Made by a program: the position numbers and the translations under genes
The notes under the pieces: generated by a model
The model's database searches: none
What the model saw: the letters and a program-made list of their open reading frames with translations, nothing else
What the model was told of the DNA's origin: nothing
Assembly (NCBI RefSeq): GCF_009363075.1
Contig: NZ_CP045293.1
Span: 3,534,001-3,598,000, forward strand
Length of the DNA stretch: 64,000 nucleotides
Direction: 5' to 3'
From: Paenibacillus guangzhouensis
GTDB taxonomy: Bacteria > Bacillota > Bacilli > Paenibacillales > Paenibacillaceae
Part shown: positions 20,933 to 29,149 of the stretch, piece after piece
Position numbering within the stretch: position 1 is the stretch's first letter
Layout of the letters: every line of letters starts with the position of its first letter

Positions 20933-23548
20933 TTATCCCCTTCTCACTTGTACTTGGACAGCTCCTCCGGATTCAACCGTCACGGGACTCGTGAACGAGA
21001 TCGTGCCGGACATGGCCGAATAGCTTATAGCCTTATCTTCAAGCACAATAGATTCAATCTGCTGCCCGGCGAGGAAAGGCAACTGTAGTGTGGACAACGT
21101 CAAGGTTCCATACAGGACGCATACCGATACGGCATGTTCCGATTTGGTCAATACGCCCCAACCGGAATCCAGCGACCAGAAGCATTGGAAATCGCCTTCC
21201 TGCAGGACCGGATTGAACCCGATCATCCCCTGCACCATATCGAATTCGAACCCGCTTAATGTCGGGATCAACGCATAGCTAGCCATCGACCTTGCATAAT
21301 TGCTTCCGCACTCATATTCGTTCCATGGGTTGCGTCTGTACCCGTCATAGCGGTCTCGAATGGCTTCCACGATCTCTAACCCTTCGGTCACAAGCCCTTC
21401 CTGAATCATATGAATCGCTGCTTGATATTCGAACCCGTTCATCGTCTCCTGCGCATAGGTGAGCGGAACGGCTGGCTTCTGTGTCCCTTCCGGCCAGACG
21501 CAGATCATAACGCCTGCTTCATCATTCAAGCTGTAGATTCGGCATGGGTTGAATACATCCTGCATACTCTTCTTAAAGTTATGCTCATAAATGGCTTGAA
21601 GCGCGGATTTCGTCTGTGCCGGATTGAATATCTCCCCTAAGCCGCTTATGTTCGCATGCCACTGGGCTACAACTTGATCCACGCCGCATCCGTCCACGAT
21701 TTGATACTTCATCTCCTGTTTCTCAGCATTCCAATAATGCTTCATGGCGCTTGCGTCATAAGATAAGAGAAGGGATTGATCTTTAACGTCCACAATTTGA
21801 TGATAATAAGAACCGTTGAATAAATGCTCATCCGTCCATGCTTTTCCTCGATTGAATAACGCGCGGTATTCGCCAGCTGTCTCCTGCTCGCCTAGTGCCT
21901 CCGCCATTTCGGCGCCAGCCTTGAGCGCCCCCAGGTAGAATCCATTCAGCCACGCATTCGGCCCGAACAGCTCCATATCTAACGTATGGTGCTGTCTTCC
22001 CTCGAGTACACCGTCTTTATCCGCATCCCAGCGGTCTTCGTTCGTCGCTGACCATGCATATTCGATCGATTGCTTCACCGCTGACCAATGCTGCTTCAGC
22101 CACGCCGTGTCACCGCATATTTTCCAATCCCGATACGTCTTCATGACGCCGCCGAATTGCCCATCCGCGCATGCCCGATAATTATTCGCCGCCCGACCTA
22201 CTGGCAGCTGCAGTCGGAAGGACATCCTTCCATCTTCCCGCTGGTTATAATGGAAATCTAAATCCCGCATCGAACGTTCTAACGCAGGGAACAAGAATGG
22301 AAGCGCATAAGCATAGTTCCAGACATGCGTACAAGAGCCTTCGCAAGATCCTTGGTCAGGAAGACAGCCTTCCCAGCCGTAGAACGATCCATCGGTCAAT
22401 CGCAGACATGTCGGCGACTTCAATATGGAGATATTCGCAGAGACGGCATCGAGCACCGCTGGCGGCAGCGTCGAGGAGAACAAGGCTTCCTTGAACATTA
22501 ACGTCTCCTGGTACAACCGATCCCAGTGCTGTAGAGCATAGGCTGCACTTGCCGTAGAGTTCGGGAATATTGTCGCATAATAATTTGTCCATGAATTATG
22601 AACCAGTGGATCGCAATTGCCGCCTTCACAAGAACACGACTGCGGGTTCCAATCATTCACGACATTCGGGAAGCTCCAGCTGAGCACAAACCGCACGCTA
22701 CGCTTCTCCCCTGGACCTAAGTGTATATGCGCCGCAAGCGTGCTATGATCCGTATGCTCTGGAACCGCTTTCGATTGTGCGGTCTCGTAGGAGCGATTCT
22801 TGAATTTCCCCGCGGTCGTGAGATCATTCCAATACATCTCAAGATTGTCGAACCAATCGCCGCGATACCAATATTCCTGATAGCTAATATCTTCGCTATC
22901 CGTTGCGATCGTCAAATCCCCATATTTCGGATCATGGGTGGCATACCCTGTTGATGACAGCTTGATCATATGGCTGTTCTGTACCTGTGTATACTGGCTC
23001 ACCCGTTGTTCATCCATGAACGGATTCGAGACTGTGAAGCACAGAGTATAATCCAGAGTACGAGCTGTCGTATTCGTAATCTCAATATCGAAGAAGGCAC
23101 TTGGAATGCTTGAATCCCGATCATTCAGCGGAATGAACGGGTTGAACGCGGTCATCTGGATGAGACCAGGGAACTTCGCATCTGCGAAGTCCAGCTTCGC
23201 GATTGGGAATTCACCCGTAAACTTGAGCGATTCGAAATGCGGTACGCCGGCTAATGTCGAGCGATTCGGCCCGAATCCGTAGCCGCCGTGATGGCGATAT
23301 CGAATGTTACCCATATGACCTGGCGGCAGATCGCCGTGCAGAACGCGCGCGTCTAGCAGCTCCCCGTCTGCCTCTGTCTTGATAGCAAAATGGCTGAAGT
23401 AATTATCGCTCTGCTTGTTCGGACGGTTATAAAGCTCCCAATCGATCAATCGTCCGCTGCCTGACAACCCTAGACTTCCCGATCCAATACCGCCGAGCGG
23501 GAACGATATTTCCTTTGCTTGTTCGCCTTGATAGGTGAATCTGCTCAT
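20933..23548 (-). CDS. GH116 family glycosidase (beta-glucosidase / GBA2-like)
   Basis: 871 residues from the ATG at 23548 with AAAGGAG 9 nt upstream; the frame continues upstream without a site and through the operator. It has the N-terminal GBA2 domain (SFPLGGIGSGSLGLSGSGRLIDWELYN) and the C-terminal (alpha/alpha)6 barrel with GSCTHVWNYAYALPFLFPALERSMRDLD and HHTLDMELFGPNAWLNGFYLGALKAG. The family includes bacterial beta-glucosidases, beta-xylosidases and N-acetylglucosaminidases. No signal peptide, so it acts in the cytoplasm. Two identical operators lie between it and the divergent LacI-type regulator. Confidence 0.9.
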   Translation of the reverse strand: MSRFTYQGEQAKEISFPLGGIGSGSLGLSGSGRLIDWELYNRPNKQSDNYFSHFAIKTEADGELLDARVLHGDLPPGHMGNIRYRHHGGYGFGPNRSTLAGVPHFESLKFTGEFPIAKLDFADAKFPGLIQMTAFNPFIPLNDRDSSIPSAFFDIEITNTTARTLDYTLCFTVSNPFMDEQRVSQYTQVQNSHMIKLSSTGYATHDPKYGDLTIATDSEDISYQEYWYRGDWFDNLEMYWNDLTTAGKFKNRSYETAQSKAVPEHTDHSTLAAHIHLGPGEKRSVRFVLSWSFPNVVNDWNPQSCSCEGGNCDPLVHNSWTNYYATIFPNSTASAAYALQHWDRLYQETLMFKEALFSSTLPPAVLDAVSANISILKSPTCLRLTDGSFYGWEGCLPDQGSCEGSCTHVWNYAYALPFLFPALERSMRDLDFHYNQREDGRMSFRLQLPVGRAANNYRACADGQFGGVMKTYRDWKICGDTAWLKQHWSAVKQSIEYAWSATNEDRWDADKDGVLEGRQHHTLDMELFGPNAWLNGFYLGALKAGAEMAEALGEQETAGEYRALFNRGKAWTDEHLFNGSYYHQIVDVKDQSLLLSYDASAMKHYWNAEKQEMKYQIVDGCGVDQVVAQWHANISGLGEIFNPAQTKSALQAIYEHNFKKSMQDVFNPCRIYSLNDEAGVMICVWPEGTQKPAVPLTYAQETMNGFEYQAAIHMIQEGLVTEGLEIVEAIRDRYDGYRRNPWNEYECGSNYARSMASYALIPTLSGFEFDMVQGMIGFNPVLQEGDFQCFWSLDSGWGVLTKSEHAVSVCVLYGTLTLSTLQLPFLAGQQIESIVLEDKAISYSAMSGTISFTSPVTVESGGAVQVQVRRG

Positions 23549-23619
23549 AGGTTCGATCTCCTTTGTCGATTGAATCCAAATCTTCCATTTATCGAAATTT
23601 ACATATCCTACTGCATTTA

Positions 23620-23632
23620 CGTTCACGTGCAC
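23620..23632. promoter_or_regulatory. Operator copy 1 for the LacI-type regulator
   Basis: CGTTCACGTGCAC with the palindromic core CACGTG, 72 nt upstream of the GH116 start. An identical 13-mer lies at 23708-23720. Confidence 0.75.
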
Positions 23633-23707
23633 GGGTTTATTGTAGCAGTCCTTTTTTCGGTTGTAAACCACCTAGAGAAAATTCGCATACAATTCATTTA
23701 TTCAATC

Positions 23708-23720
23708 CGTTCACGTGCAC
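23708..23720. promoter_or_regulatory. Operator copy 2 for the LacI-type regulator
   Basis: Identical CGTTCACGTGCAC, 67 nt upstream of the lacI-type start and 88 nt from copy 1. The spacing of about 8.4 helical turns would permit looping. Confidence 0.75.
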
Positions 23721-23786
23721 AAATTGACCAGACGACTGTTTTGAGATACGATAAATCTATCTTAAGGAGAGGACCGGAAATACGCG

Positions 23787-24776
23787 ATGCAGAAGATTAC
23801 GAGTAAACATATTGCAGAAATATGCGGGGTCACACGCGGTACCGTCGACCGTGCACTGAACAACCGCCCTGGCATTAAGCCTGCGACGCGTGAGAAAATC
23901 TTAAAAGCAGCCGAAGAGCTCGGATACCGTCCGGATTATCTAGGTCAGAGTCTCGTTCGAGGCGAGACCCGAACCCTCGGGATTGTGATGTTCGATGTTC
24001 ATAACCGGATTTTCGCCCAACTATTCCATGCGTTTGAAGAAGTCGCAAGATCACATGGATACTTCGTCTATCTTGTCTTATCCCATAAAGACCAAGCCGT
24101 AGAGATTGAATATATACATAATCTAATCGATCGTCGTGTCGACGGAATTGCGCTCAATCCGATCAATGAAGGGGCAGCCTTCGAATCCCTGCTCCAGAAG
24201 ACGCGAACCCCCATTCTGACTTTTGGAAATGAACTCTCTGCTCATTTCCCTCACATCTGGATCGACGATCAAGCTGCCATTCAAGACGCCGTCAACCATA
24301 TTGCAGTGAAAGGCTATCAACATATCCTGTATGTCAGTCCGCCGCTCCGATTTAAAGGGCGAGAGAATATCCACGTTCCCGAACAGCGGTATGCAGGGCT
24401 TCAGTCGGCTCTTCAACAACACCCTGATATCAGCCATACCGTGATCACCTCAAAAGATTATGTGGACGCCATCCATGCAGAGCTGCAGAAGTCATTCCGA
24501 CGCACTGCGATTTTATGTACAAGCGATATTTTCGCGCTCGAAGTATTGAAATCGTTAAAAGATGCAGGCATGGATGTCCCTCACGAAGTCGGCGTCATGG
24601 GGTTCGATAATATCGATATGCTGAACTATATCGATCCGCCGCTCACAACCGTGGACTACCAAGTCGAGGACATCGGCAGACGCCTAGCAGACTCGCTCAT
24701 CCGCCGTATTCAAGGCGAGGTCGTTCCTTCACGCACCATAGTAACGCATAGCATTATGGAACGCAGCTCGCTCTAA
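23787..24776 (+). CDS. LacI family transcriptional regulator
   Basis: 329 residues; ATG with AAGGAGAGG upstream. N-terminal LacI HTH (about 4-50: ITSKHIAEICGVTRGTVDRALNNRPGIKPATREKILKAAEELGY), hinge, then a periplasmic-binding-protein-like sugar domain ending in VGVMGFDNIDMLNYIDPPLTTVDYQVEDIGRRLAD. The position of two identical palindromes between it and the GH116 gene indicates that it controls that gene and itself. Its transcript originally ended in the terminator now split by the IS. Confidence 0.9.
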   Translation: MQKITSKHIAEICGVTRGTVDRALNNRPGIKPATREKILKAAEELGYRPDYLGQSLVRGETRTLGIVMFDVHNRIFAQLFHAFEEVARSHGYFVYLVLSHKDQAVEIEYIHNLIDRRVDGIALNPINEGAAFESLLQKTRTPILTFGNELSAHFPHIWIDDQAAIQDAVNHIAVKGYQHILYVSPPLRFKGRENIHVPEQRYAGLQSALQQHPDISHTVITSKDYVDAIHAELQKSFRRTAILCTSDIFALEVLKSLKDAGMDVPHEVGVMGFDNIDMLNYIDPPLTTVDYQVEDIGRRLADSLIRRIQGEVVPSRTIVTHSIMERSSL

Positions 24777-24840
24777 CATCAAAAAGGCTGTTCCCAGGTG
24801 GTCATATCCCCGTCAAGTAGACAGCTAAAAAAGCCATAAA

Positions 24841-25692
24841 TTAAGCGGCGATCGCTTTCCTGTATTCAACAGGGGAGAGGTCGCCTAATTTTTTCTGAAA
24901 CCGCTCATGGTTGTAATAAGCAATATATTCAGTGATCAAACGTTCAGCTTCAGAGGCACCGTTTGGCTTCACCAAATGAAGCTTTTCTGCCTTTAGATGC
25001 GAGAAGAACGACTCAACGCACGCATTATCAAAGCAGTTCCCACGTCTAGAATGGCTGCCAACAAGCTTCTGATCTGCAAGGAGCTTTGCATACGTCTTTG
25101 TCGTGTATTGAAACCCTTGATCAGAGTGCAGGATCGCTTTTGGTGTATTCAGTTGTTTTACGGTGTCCAGAACAAGTTCTAGGTCATTTCGTTCTCCCAA
25201 CCTCCAAGTCAAAATCTCATTGTTGTAGAGGTCTAAAACAACTGAAAGATAGAGGAAGCCATGTCCAACGCGAACATAGGTTATGTCGGTTACTAGTTTG
25301 AGCTTAGCTGCGGCTGAAGTGAATTCCCGGTTTAATACATTCTGGAACAACACAGAAGGCTTTCTGCCTGCGAAAGGCCGTTTCTTACGTATGACAGACT
25401 GGATTCCTAATTCTCGCATGAGTCGTCGCACCTTCTTGTGGTTAACATATAGCCCTTCCTTTCGTAGTGCTGTGCGCATGCGAAAATAACCGTAGTAAGG
25501 CCGAATACGGTGAATCGCTAGAATATGCTCTTTAATTACCGTATTCTCATCCATACGTGTTTTCCGGGACTCGTAAGTGGCTAACCATTTATAGTAGCCA
25601 GAACGGGAAACCTCAGCAATCTTACACAGTAATTTAATAGGAAAATCGGTTTTCATTTCTCGAATGGACTCGAATCGGACTTGCTTATCCAA
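24841..25692 (-). CDS. IS3-family transposase, OrfB (DDE integrase domain)
   Basis: 283 residues from a TTG with GGGGAGGAAAG before it; normally it would be made as the OrfAB fusion by -1 frameshifting at 25722-25728. It has HTH_21 (KLLCKIAEVSRSGYYKWL) and an rve domain with all three acidic residues: VTDITYV, HSDQGFQYTT, and NACVESFFSHLKAE. The frame is intact and ends YRKAIAA, 42 nt from the left end of the element. Confidence 0.95.
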   Translation of the reverse strand: MDKQVRFESIREMKTDFPIKLLCKIAEVSRSGYYKWLATYESRKTRMDENTVIKEHILAIHRIRPYYGYFRMRTALRKEGLYVNHKKVRRLMRELGIQSVIRKKRPFAGRKPSVLFQNVLNREFTSAAAKLKLVTDITYVRVGHGFLYLSVVLDLYNNEILTWRLGERNDLELVLDTVKQLNTPKAILHSDQGFQYTTKTYAKLLADQKLVGSHSRRGNCFDNACVESFFSHLKAEKLHLVKPNGASEAERLITEYIAYYNHERFQKKLGDLSPVEYRKAIAA

Positions 25693-25988
25693 CTTTCCTC
25701 CCCATGTAGATTTGGATTGAGCTTTTTTAGATATTCCACCTGTGCTTTCAAATAACTAATCTCTTCTTCAACTGATCTGAAGCGCTTCTTACTCCATCTC
25801 CCTCGAAGATCCTTAAACGTTTCCCCACGCTCAGATTTCTTTACCCAATTCTGAATTTGACTCTTACTCTTGATACTCAGCTTATTCATAATCATGGAAT
25901 AACTCCAGTGTTCCTCAAGACGTAGTCTAACAGCCTCCTGCTTAGTTGTTTCGTCATAACGATTGAATGTCTGTCCCTTTTTCGCCAT
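25653..25988 (-). CDS. IS3-family transposase, OrfA (HTH)
   Basis: 111 residues from the ATG at 25988 with GGAGGGG upstream. It has a helix-turn-helix (YSMIMNKLSIKSKSQIQNWVKKSERGETF) and a leucine-zipper-like C-terminal helix (VEEEISYLKAQVEYLKKL), as in other OrfA proteins. It overlaps OrfB by 40 nt. Confidence 0.9.
   Translation of the reverse strand: MAKKGQTFNRYDETTKQEAVRLRLEEHWSYSMIMNKLSIKSKSQIQNWVKKSERGETFKDLRGRWSKKRFRSVEEEISYLKAQVEYLKKLNPNLHGEESWISKSDSSPFEK
25722..25728 (-). promoter_or_regulatory. Programmed -1 frameshift heptamer A-AAA-AAG of the IS
   Basis: On the minus strand the codons CTA AAA AAG of OrfA contain the slippery heptamer AAAAAAG in the correct zero-frame phase. Sliding back one base opens a frame that reads, without a stop, into the OrfB start region, which makes the OrfAB transposase. 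Confidence 0.85.
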
Positions 25989-26096
25989 GAAAAAATCCCC
26001 TCCGGTCAACAGTGTTGAATTCATCATAACATGAACTCTTTTTTTACTGTCTACCGTAAGGGGATAATACCACAGGGGAACAGCCTTTTACTTCGT

Positions 26097-27377
26097 CTAT
26101 CCTTGAACCGCGACCGGTTGATTCGCGATCATATCGGCAAGCTTAACAGCCTGGCCGCCTTTCAATCTGGACTGCTCAGATGCAAAGGCTATCAGATGGC
26201 TCTGCAACGAGGCTGTCGCGGACGTCAATCCATACGATGGATTCTGGTCGAAGCGTCTCACTTCGCGCAGGAAGGAGCTGACCATGCGCTCGTCGCCGCC
26301 GCCGTGTCCGTCGCCGCTCGTGTTACAATTGATCTCCAGCTTCTCCCCAGTCAGATAACGATACAGCGTATAGATGCCGGTATCCATGTCGCCGATGATC
26401 TCAGCCTTCGTCCCCATAATCTGTACTCTGCGGGCACCGCTCTCGGTAAGTCCCGACATGATAAAGGAAGCGTTCGCCCCGTTCGTGAACTCCATATTCA
26501 CGATCTGATGGTCTACCACATTGTTATCGCAGCGATACACGCAGCGTCCGAACGGCCCTTCATGAAGCGCATTCAGAATGCCTTCCTGCGAGAGGTCGCT
26601 GGTCATATAACGTGCCCATGGATGATGAGGCGGGTCGATATACATCTTGAGCGCCGAGAACGCGCACTCTTTCTCCACTTCGCAGCCGTCGATGCAGCGG
26701 TCCGCCGAGCCTTCCGGCGCATTCTCCGGCCGGAAATGCAGAAGCGAGCCGAAGGAGCTCACGTTAGTGCATTCTTGCCCCATCAACCAAGAGATAATAT
26801 CGAGGTCATGGCATGATTTCGCGAGAATCATCGGGCTCGTCTCTTCGGAATTCCGCCAGTTCCCGCGAACATAACTATGCGTCATATGACGGTAACCAAC
26901 ATTCTCCGTCAATTGGATCGTCGCGACGGTTCCAAGCTCGCCTTGCTCGATGCATTTCTTGATTCCTGTCCAGAACGGTGTATAGCGAAGCACATGGCTC
27001 ACGATCAACAGACGCTCATGCTTAAGCGACGCCTGCTCGAGCGCAATGCACTCCTCCTGCGAAGGCGACATCGGCTTCTCGAGCAACACGTGATAGCCGA
27101 GTTCCATCGCCATCATTGCTGGAACGTAATGCATCCGATCGAGTGTACTAATGATCATTACGTCCGCAATCTTGCCTTTCTCAAATGCTTTTTCCCATGA
27201 ATCGTATACTTGATCCGGAGCAATCTGATGAATTGCCGCGAAATTATTCCTGCGCTCATCATCTGGTTCTGCGACCGCAACGATCTTCATTTCATTCGGA
27301 TATTTTTCCGCATAAGGCCCATAGATGTATCGACCTCTGCTGCCTGCACCAAGTAGTACCGCGGTTAGTGTTCTCAC
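26097..27377 (-). CDS. Gfo/Idh/MocA family oxidoreductase
   Basis: 426 residues; GTG at 27377 with GAGGGGG upstream. N-terminal Rossmann fold (RTLTAVLLGAGSRGRYIYGPYAEKYP) and the usual EKPMSPSQEE (E-K-P dehydrogenase motif), then a C-terminal alpha/beta dimerisation domain. A CIDGCEVEKEC cluster and HHPW follow, an extension found in some family members. Such NAD(P)-dependent enzymes oxidise or reduce sugars and sugar derivatives. It is the last gene behind the YesN gene in the same direction, so it probably belongs to the transport operon. The IS lies 24 nt past its stop. Confidence 0.9.
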   Translation of the reverse strand: MRTLTAVLLGAGSRGRYIYGPYAEKYPNEMKIVAVAEPDDERRNNFAAIHQIAPDQVYDSWEKAFEKGKIADVMIISTLDRMHYVPAMMAMELGYHVLLEKPMSPSQEECIALEQASLKHERLLIVSHVLRYTPFWTGIKKCIEQGELGTVATIQLTENVGYRHMTHSYVRGNWRNSEETSPMILAKSCHDLDIISWLMGQECTNVSSFGSLLHFRPENAPEGSADRCIDGCEVEKECAFSALKMYIDPPHHPWARYMTSDLSQEGILNALHEGPFGRCVYRCDNNVVDHQIVNMEFTNGANASFIMSGLTESGARRVQIMGTKAEIIGDMDTGIYTLYRYLTGEKLEINCNTSGDGHGGGDERMVSSFLREVRRFDQNPSYGLTSATASLQSHLIAFASEQSRLKGGQAVKLADMIANQPVAVQG

Positions 27378-27481
27378 GTCATTTCCCCCTCATGTTCACC
27401 CTCTGACTTCTATAGTAAAGGCAGAGCTAGGTACACGAAAGAGATCGTTGCTTACATTTCATATACATTTATTGACCTGGC

Positions 27482-29149
27482 CTATGTTCCGGAACGGACG
27501 ATGCGGTACTCCTGCGGCGTGATGTCATTCTGCTTCTTGAAGAAGCGGATAAAGGCGAGAGCTGAGTTATAACCAAGCGCGGTCGCGATTTCGCCTACTT
27601 TCATCGACGATTTCAACAGCATTTCCTGCGCGATTAAGTTCCGGTAATCGTTAATATATTTAGAGAGGCCGATCCCCGTCATTTGCTTATACAGTCTGGA
27701 GAGGTAGGACGGATTCAAGCCGACGTAATCTGCAAGCGCATTCAGCGAAATATCGGTTGCGATATTTTCTTCGATGTATCGATGAACCTTATTCACGACC
27801 TCCGTCGGCAATTGCGTGCCACGCATCGTATTCCATTCGAATAGATAGTCAGCGAGCTGCCAGAAATATTGAATCATATCCGGCCAGGAAGACGCATCCT
27901 TAGGCTGGAACAGTCGATCCAAATCCAGCTGCGTGTTCACATAGTCGCGGAAATCCCGATTCTTATGAATATAGAACAAGAACACGGCTGATAGGGAATG
28001 GTACAGCTCTGTCTTCCGCTCATTCGGCGTCTTCGGATCATTCCAGATCGAAGTCAATTCGACATATAACTTATTGAACGGTTCACGATGATTATTCTCA
28101 ATGCAGGTCATGAGCAATTGAATACGAGAATGGTAGAAGCAATCATGATAAGCTCCTGCTTTATCGTCTTCATCCTCGGACTGCATATCAATATCCGTCA
28201 AGATGACTTCGTTGGATAAGCCATGACCGTGCGCGAGACCGAACTTGATCGAATGAAACCGATCAGAGACATGCTCCCATAACGTTGGCTCGCTGCCCAG
28301 TACGAAAGATACTGGCAGACTCAGCAATCGCTTACAAGTTCCTTGAACCGTCTCGAGAATCCCGCTCGTATATCGATATACACGCCCCCAATCCAATGTG
28401 TGGGAATGGTTGGCATTCGGTTCAGAAGGCAGCGGTTGAATGAGCCACACGATTCGCGTCAGATCATATACGAAGGAGAAGCTTCGCACTTGCGCAGATA
28501 GATATTCATCACATACATTCTGGAATGCGTACGTTAGCAGCGCTTTATCCGGTGTCGTGAACAGTTCTCGCCATGCATCTACTCTACCTATCAGGATAAA
28601 GACAGGCAAATTCGCATCAAGTGGAATATCGATCTCCTTGAATGTACGTTCTAATTGACTCTGTGTGACCTGTTTGCCCTGGAAGAGCCCCCACAAATAA
28701 TCTTTCTGGAGAGATGGCAGTGCTTGTCGCATCTTCGTCTGTGCTCTAGCTATAATTTGCTGCTGACTATACTCCGCCTCCAGCGTCGTTATGGCTCGCT
28801 CGACTGATTCGATAATTTTCTCATCGCTCTCTACTTTCAGAATATACTCGAAGCCGCCATACGTAATGGCGCTCCGCGCATAGTGAAAATCATTGTAACC
28901 CGTGAGAAAAATGACTTTGCAGGCCGGCCACTCCTTTTTAATCTCCTGCAGCAGCTCGATCCCTTCCAGCCCTGGCATCTTAATATCTGAGATCACGATA
29001 TCGACGCGCTGCTCCCGCATGACGCTCAGCGCTTCTTCACCGGAATAGGCCTTAAGCAGCTCAAGCTTCAAGTGATCCGTCTGTTCGAATAATTCGAGCA
29101 ATCCATCCACAATGATCGGAAGATCATCCACGATTAGCAATCGGTACAT
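27482..29149 (-). CDS. YesN-type response regulator (receiver + AraC HTH)
   Basis: 555 residues; ATG with GAGGGGGA upstream. Receiver domain at about 1-120 (LIVDDLPIIVDGLLELF; phosphoacceptor in DIVISDIKMPGLEG), a long middle region, and an AraC-type double HTH at about 455-555 (ATDISLNALADYVGLNPSYLSRLYKQMTG, then KVGEIATALGYNSALAFIRFFKKQNDITPQEYR). It follows the YesM kinase gene by 13 nt. In the family, the pair activates the adjacent sugar importer. Confidence 0.95.
   Translation of the reverse strand: MYRLLIVDDLPIIVDGLLELFEQTDHLKLELLKAYSGEEALSVMREQRVDIVISDIKMPGLEGIELLQEIKKEWPACKVIFLTGYNDFHYARSAITYGGFEYILKVESDEKIIESVERAITTLEAEYSQQQIIARAQTKMRQALPSLQKDYLWGLFQGKQVTQSQLERTFKEIDIPLDANLPVFILIGRVDAWRELFTTPDKALLTYAFQNVCDEYLSAQVRSFSFVYDLTRIVWLIQPLPSEPNANHSHTLDWGRVYRYTSGILETVQGTCKRLLSLPVSFVLGSEPTLWEHVSDRFHSIKFGLAHGHGLSNEVILTDIDMQSEDEDDKAGAYHDCFYHSRIQLLMTCIENNHREPFNKLYVELTSIWNDPKTPNERKTELYHSLSAVFLFYIHKNRDFRDYVNTQLDLDRLFQPKDASSWPDMIQYFWQLADYLFEWNTMRGTQLPTEVVNKVHRYIEENIATDISLNALADYVGLNPSYLSRLYKQMTGIGLSKYINDYRNLIAQEMLLKSSMKVGEIATALGYNSALAFIRFFKKQNDITPQEYRIVRSGT

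Follow-up and report, generated by a model that had tools for sequence, protein, structure and literature searches.

The 64,000-nucleotide stretch of Paenibacillus guangzhouensis DNA analyzed here (the window; contig NZ_CP045293.1, positions 3,534,001 to 3,598,000) contains an IS3-family insertion sequence (IS) of 1274 bp, which occupies 24799–26072 with its transposase on the − strand and the tetranucleotide CAGG on both sides. The element lies between the convergent ends of a LacI-type regulator gene and a Gfo/Idh oxidoreductase gene, where it splits a terminator hairpin. In window coordinates the locus is laid out as follows.

23787–24776, + strand: LacI-type regulator; stop codon 9 bp from the stem
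24781–24785, no strand: A run left of the split stem, equal to the T run of the − strand terminator (sequence)
24786–24794, no strand: left arm GGCTGTTCC of the split terminator hairpin (sequence, rejoined fold)
24795–24798, no strand: left copy of the target duplication, CAGG, here the entire hairpin loop (sequence)
24799–26072, − strand: IS3-family insertion sequence, 1274 bp, ends TGGTCATATCCCC and GGGGATAATACCA
24841–25692, − strand: OrfB transposase with integrase core (Pfam, NCBIfam, open frame)
25653–26027, − strand: OrfA, HTH_Tnp_1 (Pfam PF01527)
25722–25728, − strand: A AAA AAG heptamer in the orfA/orfB overlap, presumed −1 frameshift site (codons read)
26073–26076, no strand: right copy of the target duplication, CAGG (sequence)
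26077–26085, no strand: right arm GGAACAGCC of the split terminator hairpin (sequence, rejoined fold)
26086–26089, no strand: T run right of the split stem (sequence)
26097–27377, − strand, as the transposase: Gfo/Idh/MocA oxidoreductase; stop codon 11 bp from the stem

IS3 elements carry two overlapping frames with a −1 slippery heptamer, have TG...CA ends with inverted repeats, and generate a duplication of 3–5 bp. Judged by its sequence features (integrase core, HTH_21, overlapping frames, heptamer, ends, and duplication), the window element is a member of this family. OrfB matches the Pfam families rve, HTH_21, and rve_2 and the NCBIfam profile NF033516 (transpos_IS3; 293 bits, cut-off 160); its open frame of 304 aa extends upstream of a TTG and overlaps orfA. 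OrfA matches PF01527 (HTH_Tnp_1) at 24.9 bits, with a cut-off of 24.1, and had no match in the NCBIfam profile search. At the heptamer, orfA reads CTA AAA AAG, and orfB lies in the −1 frame. Since A AAA AAG is a familiar −1 frameshifting signal of the IS3 family, OrfAB is presumed by analogy to arise by a frameshift there. The element ends were read directly in the sequence, and a repeat search returned an inverted repeat spanning flank and IS end (24782–24833 / 26038–26089; 52 nt, 81% complementary). Rfam gave no match at gathering score within 23500–27600.

Excision that keeps one CAGG restores GGCTGTTCC-CAGG-GGAACAGCC with A and T runs outside (in longer form, AAAAAGGCTGTTCC-CAGG-GGAACAGCCTTTT), and the rejoined 48-mer has a fold energy of −19.9 kcal/mol. 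Direct reading and this fold thus bear out the proposal of the first-pass annotation, made from the sequence alone, that the IS sits in a terminator loop with CAGG duplicated. The P. guangzhouensis genome (G000, 6.95 Mb) holds five full copies of the element, 99–100% identical, and all five rejoin to hairpins of −18.4 to −21.7 kcal/mol over 48 bases; four of them combine the hairpin with an A or T run, and one (L005) does not. The further proposal that the duplication is the whole loop holds in the window copy (L002, 4/4), in L001 (4/4, if a G-T closing pair is counted), and in L005 (a 3-nt loop and a 3-bp duplication). It nearly holds in L003, which has the typical geometry but unequal duplicates, TAGT and TATT, a mismatch that could reflect a point change or exchange between copies. 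It fails in L004, where the duplicated CCTC is one arm of the stem tip, adjoining the loop. L004 (G000:C1:3599401-3600675) lies 1.4 kb past the right end of the window, ∼39 kb from the window copy and in the same orientation; the two could recombine, deleting or mobilizing the intervening stretch.

We assembled group T, 67 distinct complete copies of the window OrfB family drawn from Paenibacillaceae genomes, 55 named loci, and plasmid-collection records, among the tblastn matches listed. OrfB relatives were present in 26 of 197 genomes sampled from Paenibacillaceae (E ≤ 1e-80) and in 2 of 398 genomes sampled phylum-wide (E ≤ 1e-70), both of the latter being Paenibacillaceae and one the window's own. 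Candidate ends were missing at 29 loci with OrfB matches, mostly contig-end matches. The remainder gave 94 strand-wise end matches, or 82 after removal of repeats, of which 63 were kept and 19 dropped: 13 on the strand opposite OrfB and 6 of wrong length, including L074 (912 bp), which nevertheless yields a hairpin when its flanks are joined. Four copies were added later (L167, L168, L169, and L242); L170 gave no ends. OrfB loci that have no end motif on the right strand, including L034, L035, L039, L048, L049, L065, and L069, stand outside all counts. Duplications in T are 3 bp in 42 copies, 4 bp in 11, and inexact or absent in 14.

For each copy, 24 bases from each side were rejoined minus one duplication and folded, and energies (dG48) of −12 kcal/mol or lower were scored as hairpins. 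Two nulls were used: mismatched joins, in which the left and right flanks came from different copies, and genuine contiguous sequence 45–300 bp from the insertion. Mean dG48 in T was −14.5, compared with −7.3 for mismatched joins and −7.7 for nearby positions, and 39 of 67 copies passed the threshold, against 10.4% and 15.7%, respectively (permutation p 5e-5, the floor of the test). Requiring an A or T run of at least 4 in addition to the hairpin sharpened the contrast to 29/67 versus 28/1340 nearby positions. Chance is ruled out by these two nulls. The idea that misplaced IS ends create the palindrome is likewise rejected, since the flanks vary from copy to copy and are present in empty alleles. 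Two other measures were less useful: a rule of at least 7 base pairs was dropped because random positions passed nearly as often (53/63 observed, 774/1260 mismatched, and 1205/1890 random), and an ungapped-palindrome run of at least 6 discriminated weakly (43/63 versus 47.4% of mismatched joins).

The geometry within these hairpins varies. Strong dyads, with at least 11 of 14 positions paired, number 22 among the 67 T copies and 5 among 335 mismatched joins; in nine of the T dyads the duplication is central, and in eight it lies ∼5 nt off center. Centered loops measure 3 to 7 nt and duplications 3–4 bp, so duplication and loop coincide only in tight hairpins; elsewhere the duplication falls within a larger loop or sits on the stem close to its tip, ∼5 nt from the dyad.

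The same behavior appears in other IS3 elements of the Paenibacillaceae. In lineage D (53 loci, repeats included, giving 38 distinct copies with the end motif; some listed places were left out) 28/38 copies reach dG48 ≤ −12, and in lineage E (23 loci giving 18 distinct copies) 16/18 do, compared with 1/26 in three comparison groups. Across lineages, hairpin plus run is found at 43–56% of insertion points and at 1–2% of positions 45–300 bp away. Among 47 strong dyads, coincidence of the duplication and dyad centers (offset 0) is the largest single class, with 9 T, 3 D, and 4 E copies. P. guangzhouensis itself carries a single E-type copy (L252), directly beside, not within, a small hairpin (AACTGCAAAAAAGCAGTT). 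Where a single terminator-seeking relative had been envisaged, two further IS3 lineages do likewise. A quick tree built from 74 proteins unites the T rows with support of 98, the partial p4_L075 included, and sets them apart from E, which groups with IS150, L247, and ISEnfa3 (SH-aLRT 100); D joins two other Bacilli rows (support 80), away from both T and E. Deep forks are open and long branches flagged. With three separate lineages showing it, the habit is either ancient in this section of the IS3 family or evolved at least twice. The candidate ends of L247 and of L248 showed no duplication. One comparison group (A; L201–L207, genome G064) consists of seven copies of an IS3-type element in one fixed palindrome (∼TAAATGTA...TACATTTAG) with near-invariant columns, and may be regarded as a sequence-specific cousin of the hairpin habit.

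Empty sites in relatives provide a view of the target before insertion. Twelve rejoined sites of one related genome (G079) were searched in 75 genomes of its genus, taking the best four candidates per genome, and the 13 strongest matches outside G079 (from G122, G616, G637, and G654) were read. They cover eight of the 12 sites: L046, L124, L125, L126, and L127 of T, L223 of D, and L225 and L226 of E, the window site not being among them. Twelve of the 13 empty alleles align gap-free at the junction, equivalent to one copy of the duplication, and L371 is one base short there. The duplicated bases are identical in six (L364, L365, L366, L367, L368, and L372) and changed in the rest; a few stem bases also differ, most in L367 and L374. 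Folds of −18 kcal/mol or lower were found for 12/13 alleles, stable at seven of the eight sites. Because these natural alleles fold stably, the hairpins preceded the insertions. The proposal of terminator-hairpin targeting is in this way upheld both by the rejoined flanks of other copies and by sites, all of one genome, at which the hairpin exists without the IS. At the window locus, genome G002 has the lacI orthologue (85%), then a different hairpin (GAAAGCTCAG...CTGAGCTTT) and a gene that, by reading frame only, is apparently different; as an empty-site comparison for the window copy this locus is only suggestive.

Terminators are expected in convergent and tandem gaps, not in divergent ones. 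Open reading frames (ORFs) called on rejoined flanks placed 50 of 123 T, D, and E copies in convergent gaps, 49 in tandem gaps, 4 in divergent gaps, and 7 inside an ORF, with 13 uncallable; among 19 copies of groups B and Z (group A excluded), 12 are inside an ORF. These figures agree with the earlier suggestion that the IS spreads without killing genes. Since each site comes shortly after the stop codons of its convergent or tandem neighbors, few genes are broken, and low gene damage is a likely benefit of terminator targeting. The split terminator would be a cost. We found no replacement for it in 24600–26300, and there is a single terminator-like match inside the IS (shuffles average 1.5). 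Because the Gfo/Idh gene reads toward orfA, its transcripts may run on into the transposase gene. Tandem T sites show no orientation bias toward co-transcription (17 in the same direction as the IS, 14 opposite), and so lend no support to a benefit from read-through.

What, then, is recognized? No sequence is conserved in the ten columns of T that adjoin the IS (≤0.13 bits); what stands out are tracts of A to its left and of T to its right, 11–18 nt away (up to 0.29 bits). D is stricter, with C/G columns 11–13 up to 0.61 bits and tracts 15–20 nt out up to 0.83 bits. Symmetric complementarity in duplication-fixed columns is modest on average because stems and offsets vary. As the stem sequence of T is not conserved, only the A/T tracts, structure is probably read, and recognition of pairing rather than of sequence is the simplest reading for this group. 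Several T copies in one genome (G125; L131–L135 and L375–L382) lie in a dispersed short repeat (TCGAAAAACCGATTACAATTGG...), which a pattern search located at eight places, three of them beside an IS and two of them 51 bases apart; these insertions recall IS1397 in palindromic units.

We put at about 80% the probability that in this IS3 group of Paenibacillaceae (and Brevibacillus) the transposase prefers the tips of intrinsic-terminator hairpins or positions nearby. In the mechanism we propose, OrfAB, made by −1 frameshifting, would carry out copy-out/paste-in transposition of the IS3 type, and the joined ends of the circle would attack DNA folded into an extruded cruciform or a single-stranded hairpin, close to the stem-loop junctions. 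In tight hairpins the duplicated bases would then be the loop; in larger ones they would fall either within the loop or on the part of the stem close to the tip. The target may be read as extruded DNA, as a single strand at a fork, or through the terminating polymerase.

The last of these leads to a different account, in which the cue is the terminating complex at active terminators, be it paused polymerase, RNA hairpin, or R-loop. In its favor, the targets are terminators bordered by A/T tracts and seldom lie in divergent gaps as opposed to convergent or tandem ones, and D keeps a fairly fixed spacing to its A and T tracts (∼15–20 nt out). However, IS1397 and ISKpn1 target REP palindromes that were later held not to be specific terminators (PMC1525189), and the repeat that holds several G125 copies is not an ordinary terminator. 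We consider termination-coupled targeting unlikely, but still a serious contender. Alternatively, a two-fold symmetric complex could read the dyad in double-stranded DNA without an extruded hairpin, as the prominence of offset 0 among strong dyads might suggest. This we judge improbable: B-form DNA displays a dyad only through its sequence, and T stems have no common sequence, whereas group A, with its near-invariant columns, illustrates how reading of a fixed palindrome looks. Least credible is selection alone, with insertion anywhere and retention of harmless insertions in terminator regions, which fits the few copies inside ORFs and the mildness of convergent gaps as landing places, but does not account for the preference for the hairpin itself over the surrounding spacer, and which sits poorly with the expectation that splitting a terminator should cost more than landing beside one, with the near identity of the P. 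guangzhouensis copies, suggestive of recent events, and with the B and Z copies inside ORFs, which show that gene insertions can persist.

Several observations weigh against preference for hairpin tips. The expectation that other copies would also sit in hairpins is borne out for the majority of T, but 28/67 T copies miss the dG48 threshold, as do 10 of D and 2 of E. T sites that are not hairpins include all four Brevibacillus copies (L063, L064, L068, and L168) together with L242, L054, L040, and L118; other sub-threshold sites (L044, L125, L128, and L144) resemble weak terminators by eye, and at the L125 site the empty allele has a weak fold (−8.3). Five of the 14 T copies that have no exact duplication nevertheless pass the threshold. 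The −12 threshold and the A/T-run rule were picked after the data had been seen, an earlier rule having failed. D and E were first chosen as negative controls, as multi-copy rve elements and not by their flanks, and were later reclassed as positive; their counts (38 and 18) include 3 + 3 seed copies. Four control groups left out of the main fold test (nine copies with ends) gave dG48 ≤ −12 in 1/3 (C), 0/1 (F), 1/2 (G), and 0/3 (H). The stem base in D carries sequence, as its C/G columns attest. Finally, the structural reading is one that we infer from sequence.

If hairpin-tip targeting is correct, it would amount to a safe-harbor strategy, by which DDE elements multiply and genes are spared while intergenic termination is altered. 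It would also allow the formation of DNA cruciforms or hairpins at terminators to be tested directly in living cells. More broadly, folded-hairpin recognition independent of sequence may be a recurrent or ancestral target mode in much of the IS3 family, a tentative proposal that we hold to be somewhat less likely than its converse. If true, such a mode would join the three Paenibacillaceae lineages with IS1397 and ISKpn1, and perhaps with the hok-adjacent sites of IS150, and the transposases would recognize extruded hairpins of DNA in living cells, thereby marking where these structures arise.

IS150 of Escherichia coli is the IS3-family partner of lineage E in our tree, and its slip site resembles that of the window element. 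Thirteen of its copies (12 chromosomal, at about six sites, and one on a plasmid) gave rejoined 60-mers of −8.9 to −15.6 kcal/mol; 10/13 are at or below −12, a count for which no null was run, and by eye they are long-loop dyads, not of terminator form. Some IS150 copies lie in long-loop dyads of the type GGCC..CG / CGAGGCC, and 11 of the 12 chromosomal copies (L320–L331) are beside hok/mok toxin-antitoxin genes. Group IIC introns are not known to leave a duplication of the IS type. They are mobile elements that also target intrinsic terminators, but they are retroelements and insert downstream of the stem-loop, not in it (PMC3522654). The IS1447 group comprises Firmicutes IS3 elements with 3- to 4-bp duplications; it uses +1 transcriptional slippage and, in the available part of its description, appears without hairpin or terminator targeting (PMC6211511). 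Our survey of the open-access literature, by titles and abstract starts, returned nothing on ISs inserting into terminator hairpins. The novelty anticipated in the first-pass annotation is not established, being limited both by the known hairpin-targeting IS3 elements and by a search of open-access literature alone.

Nearest in behavior, likened by description rather than by sequence, are IS1397 and ISKpn1, whose insertions lie in the loop of the palindromic unit. These IS3 elements insert into enterobacterial palindromic units (REP), and their transposases appear to set that specificity (PMC1525189). Like T, they enter palindromes and make a short duplication. The palindromes they enter belong, however, to a repetitive family of host sequences, whereas the targets of T, the G125 repeat excepted, are unrelated terminators of like structure. 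The range of hairpin-targeted transposition would grow beyond the repeated palindromes of enterobacteria to take in intrinsic terminators in general, with three IS3 lineages and natural empty sites as examples.
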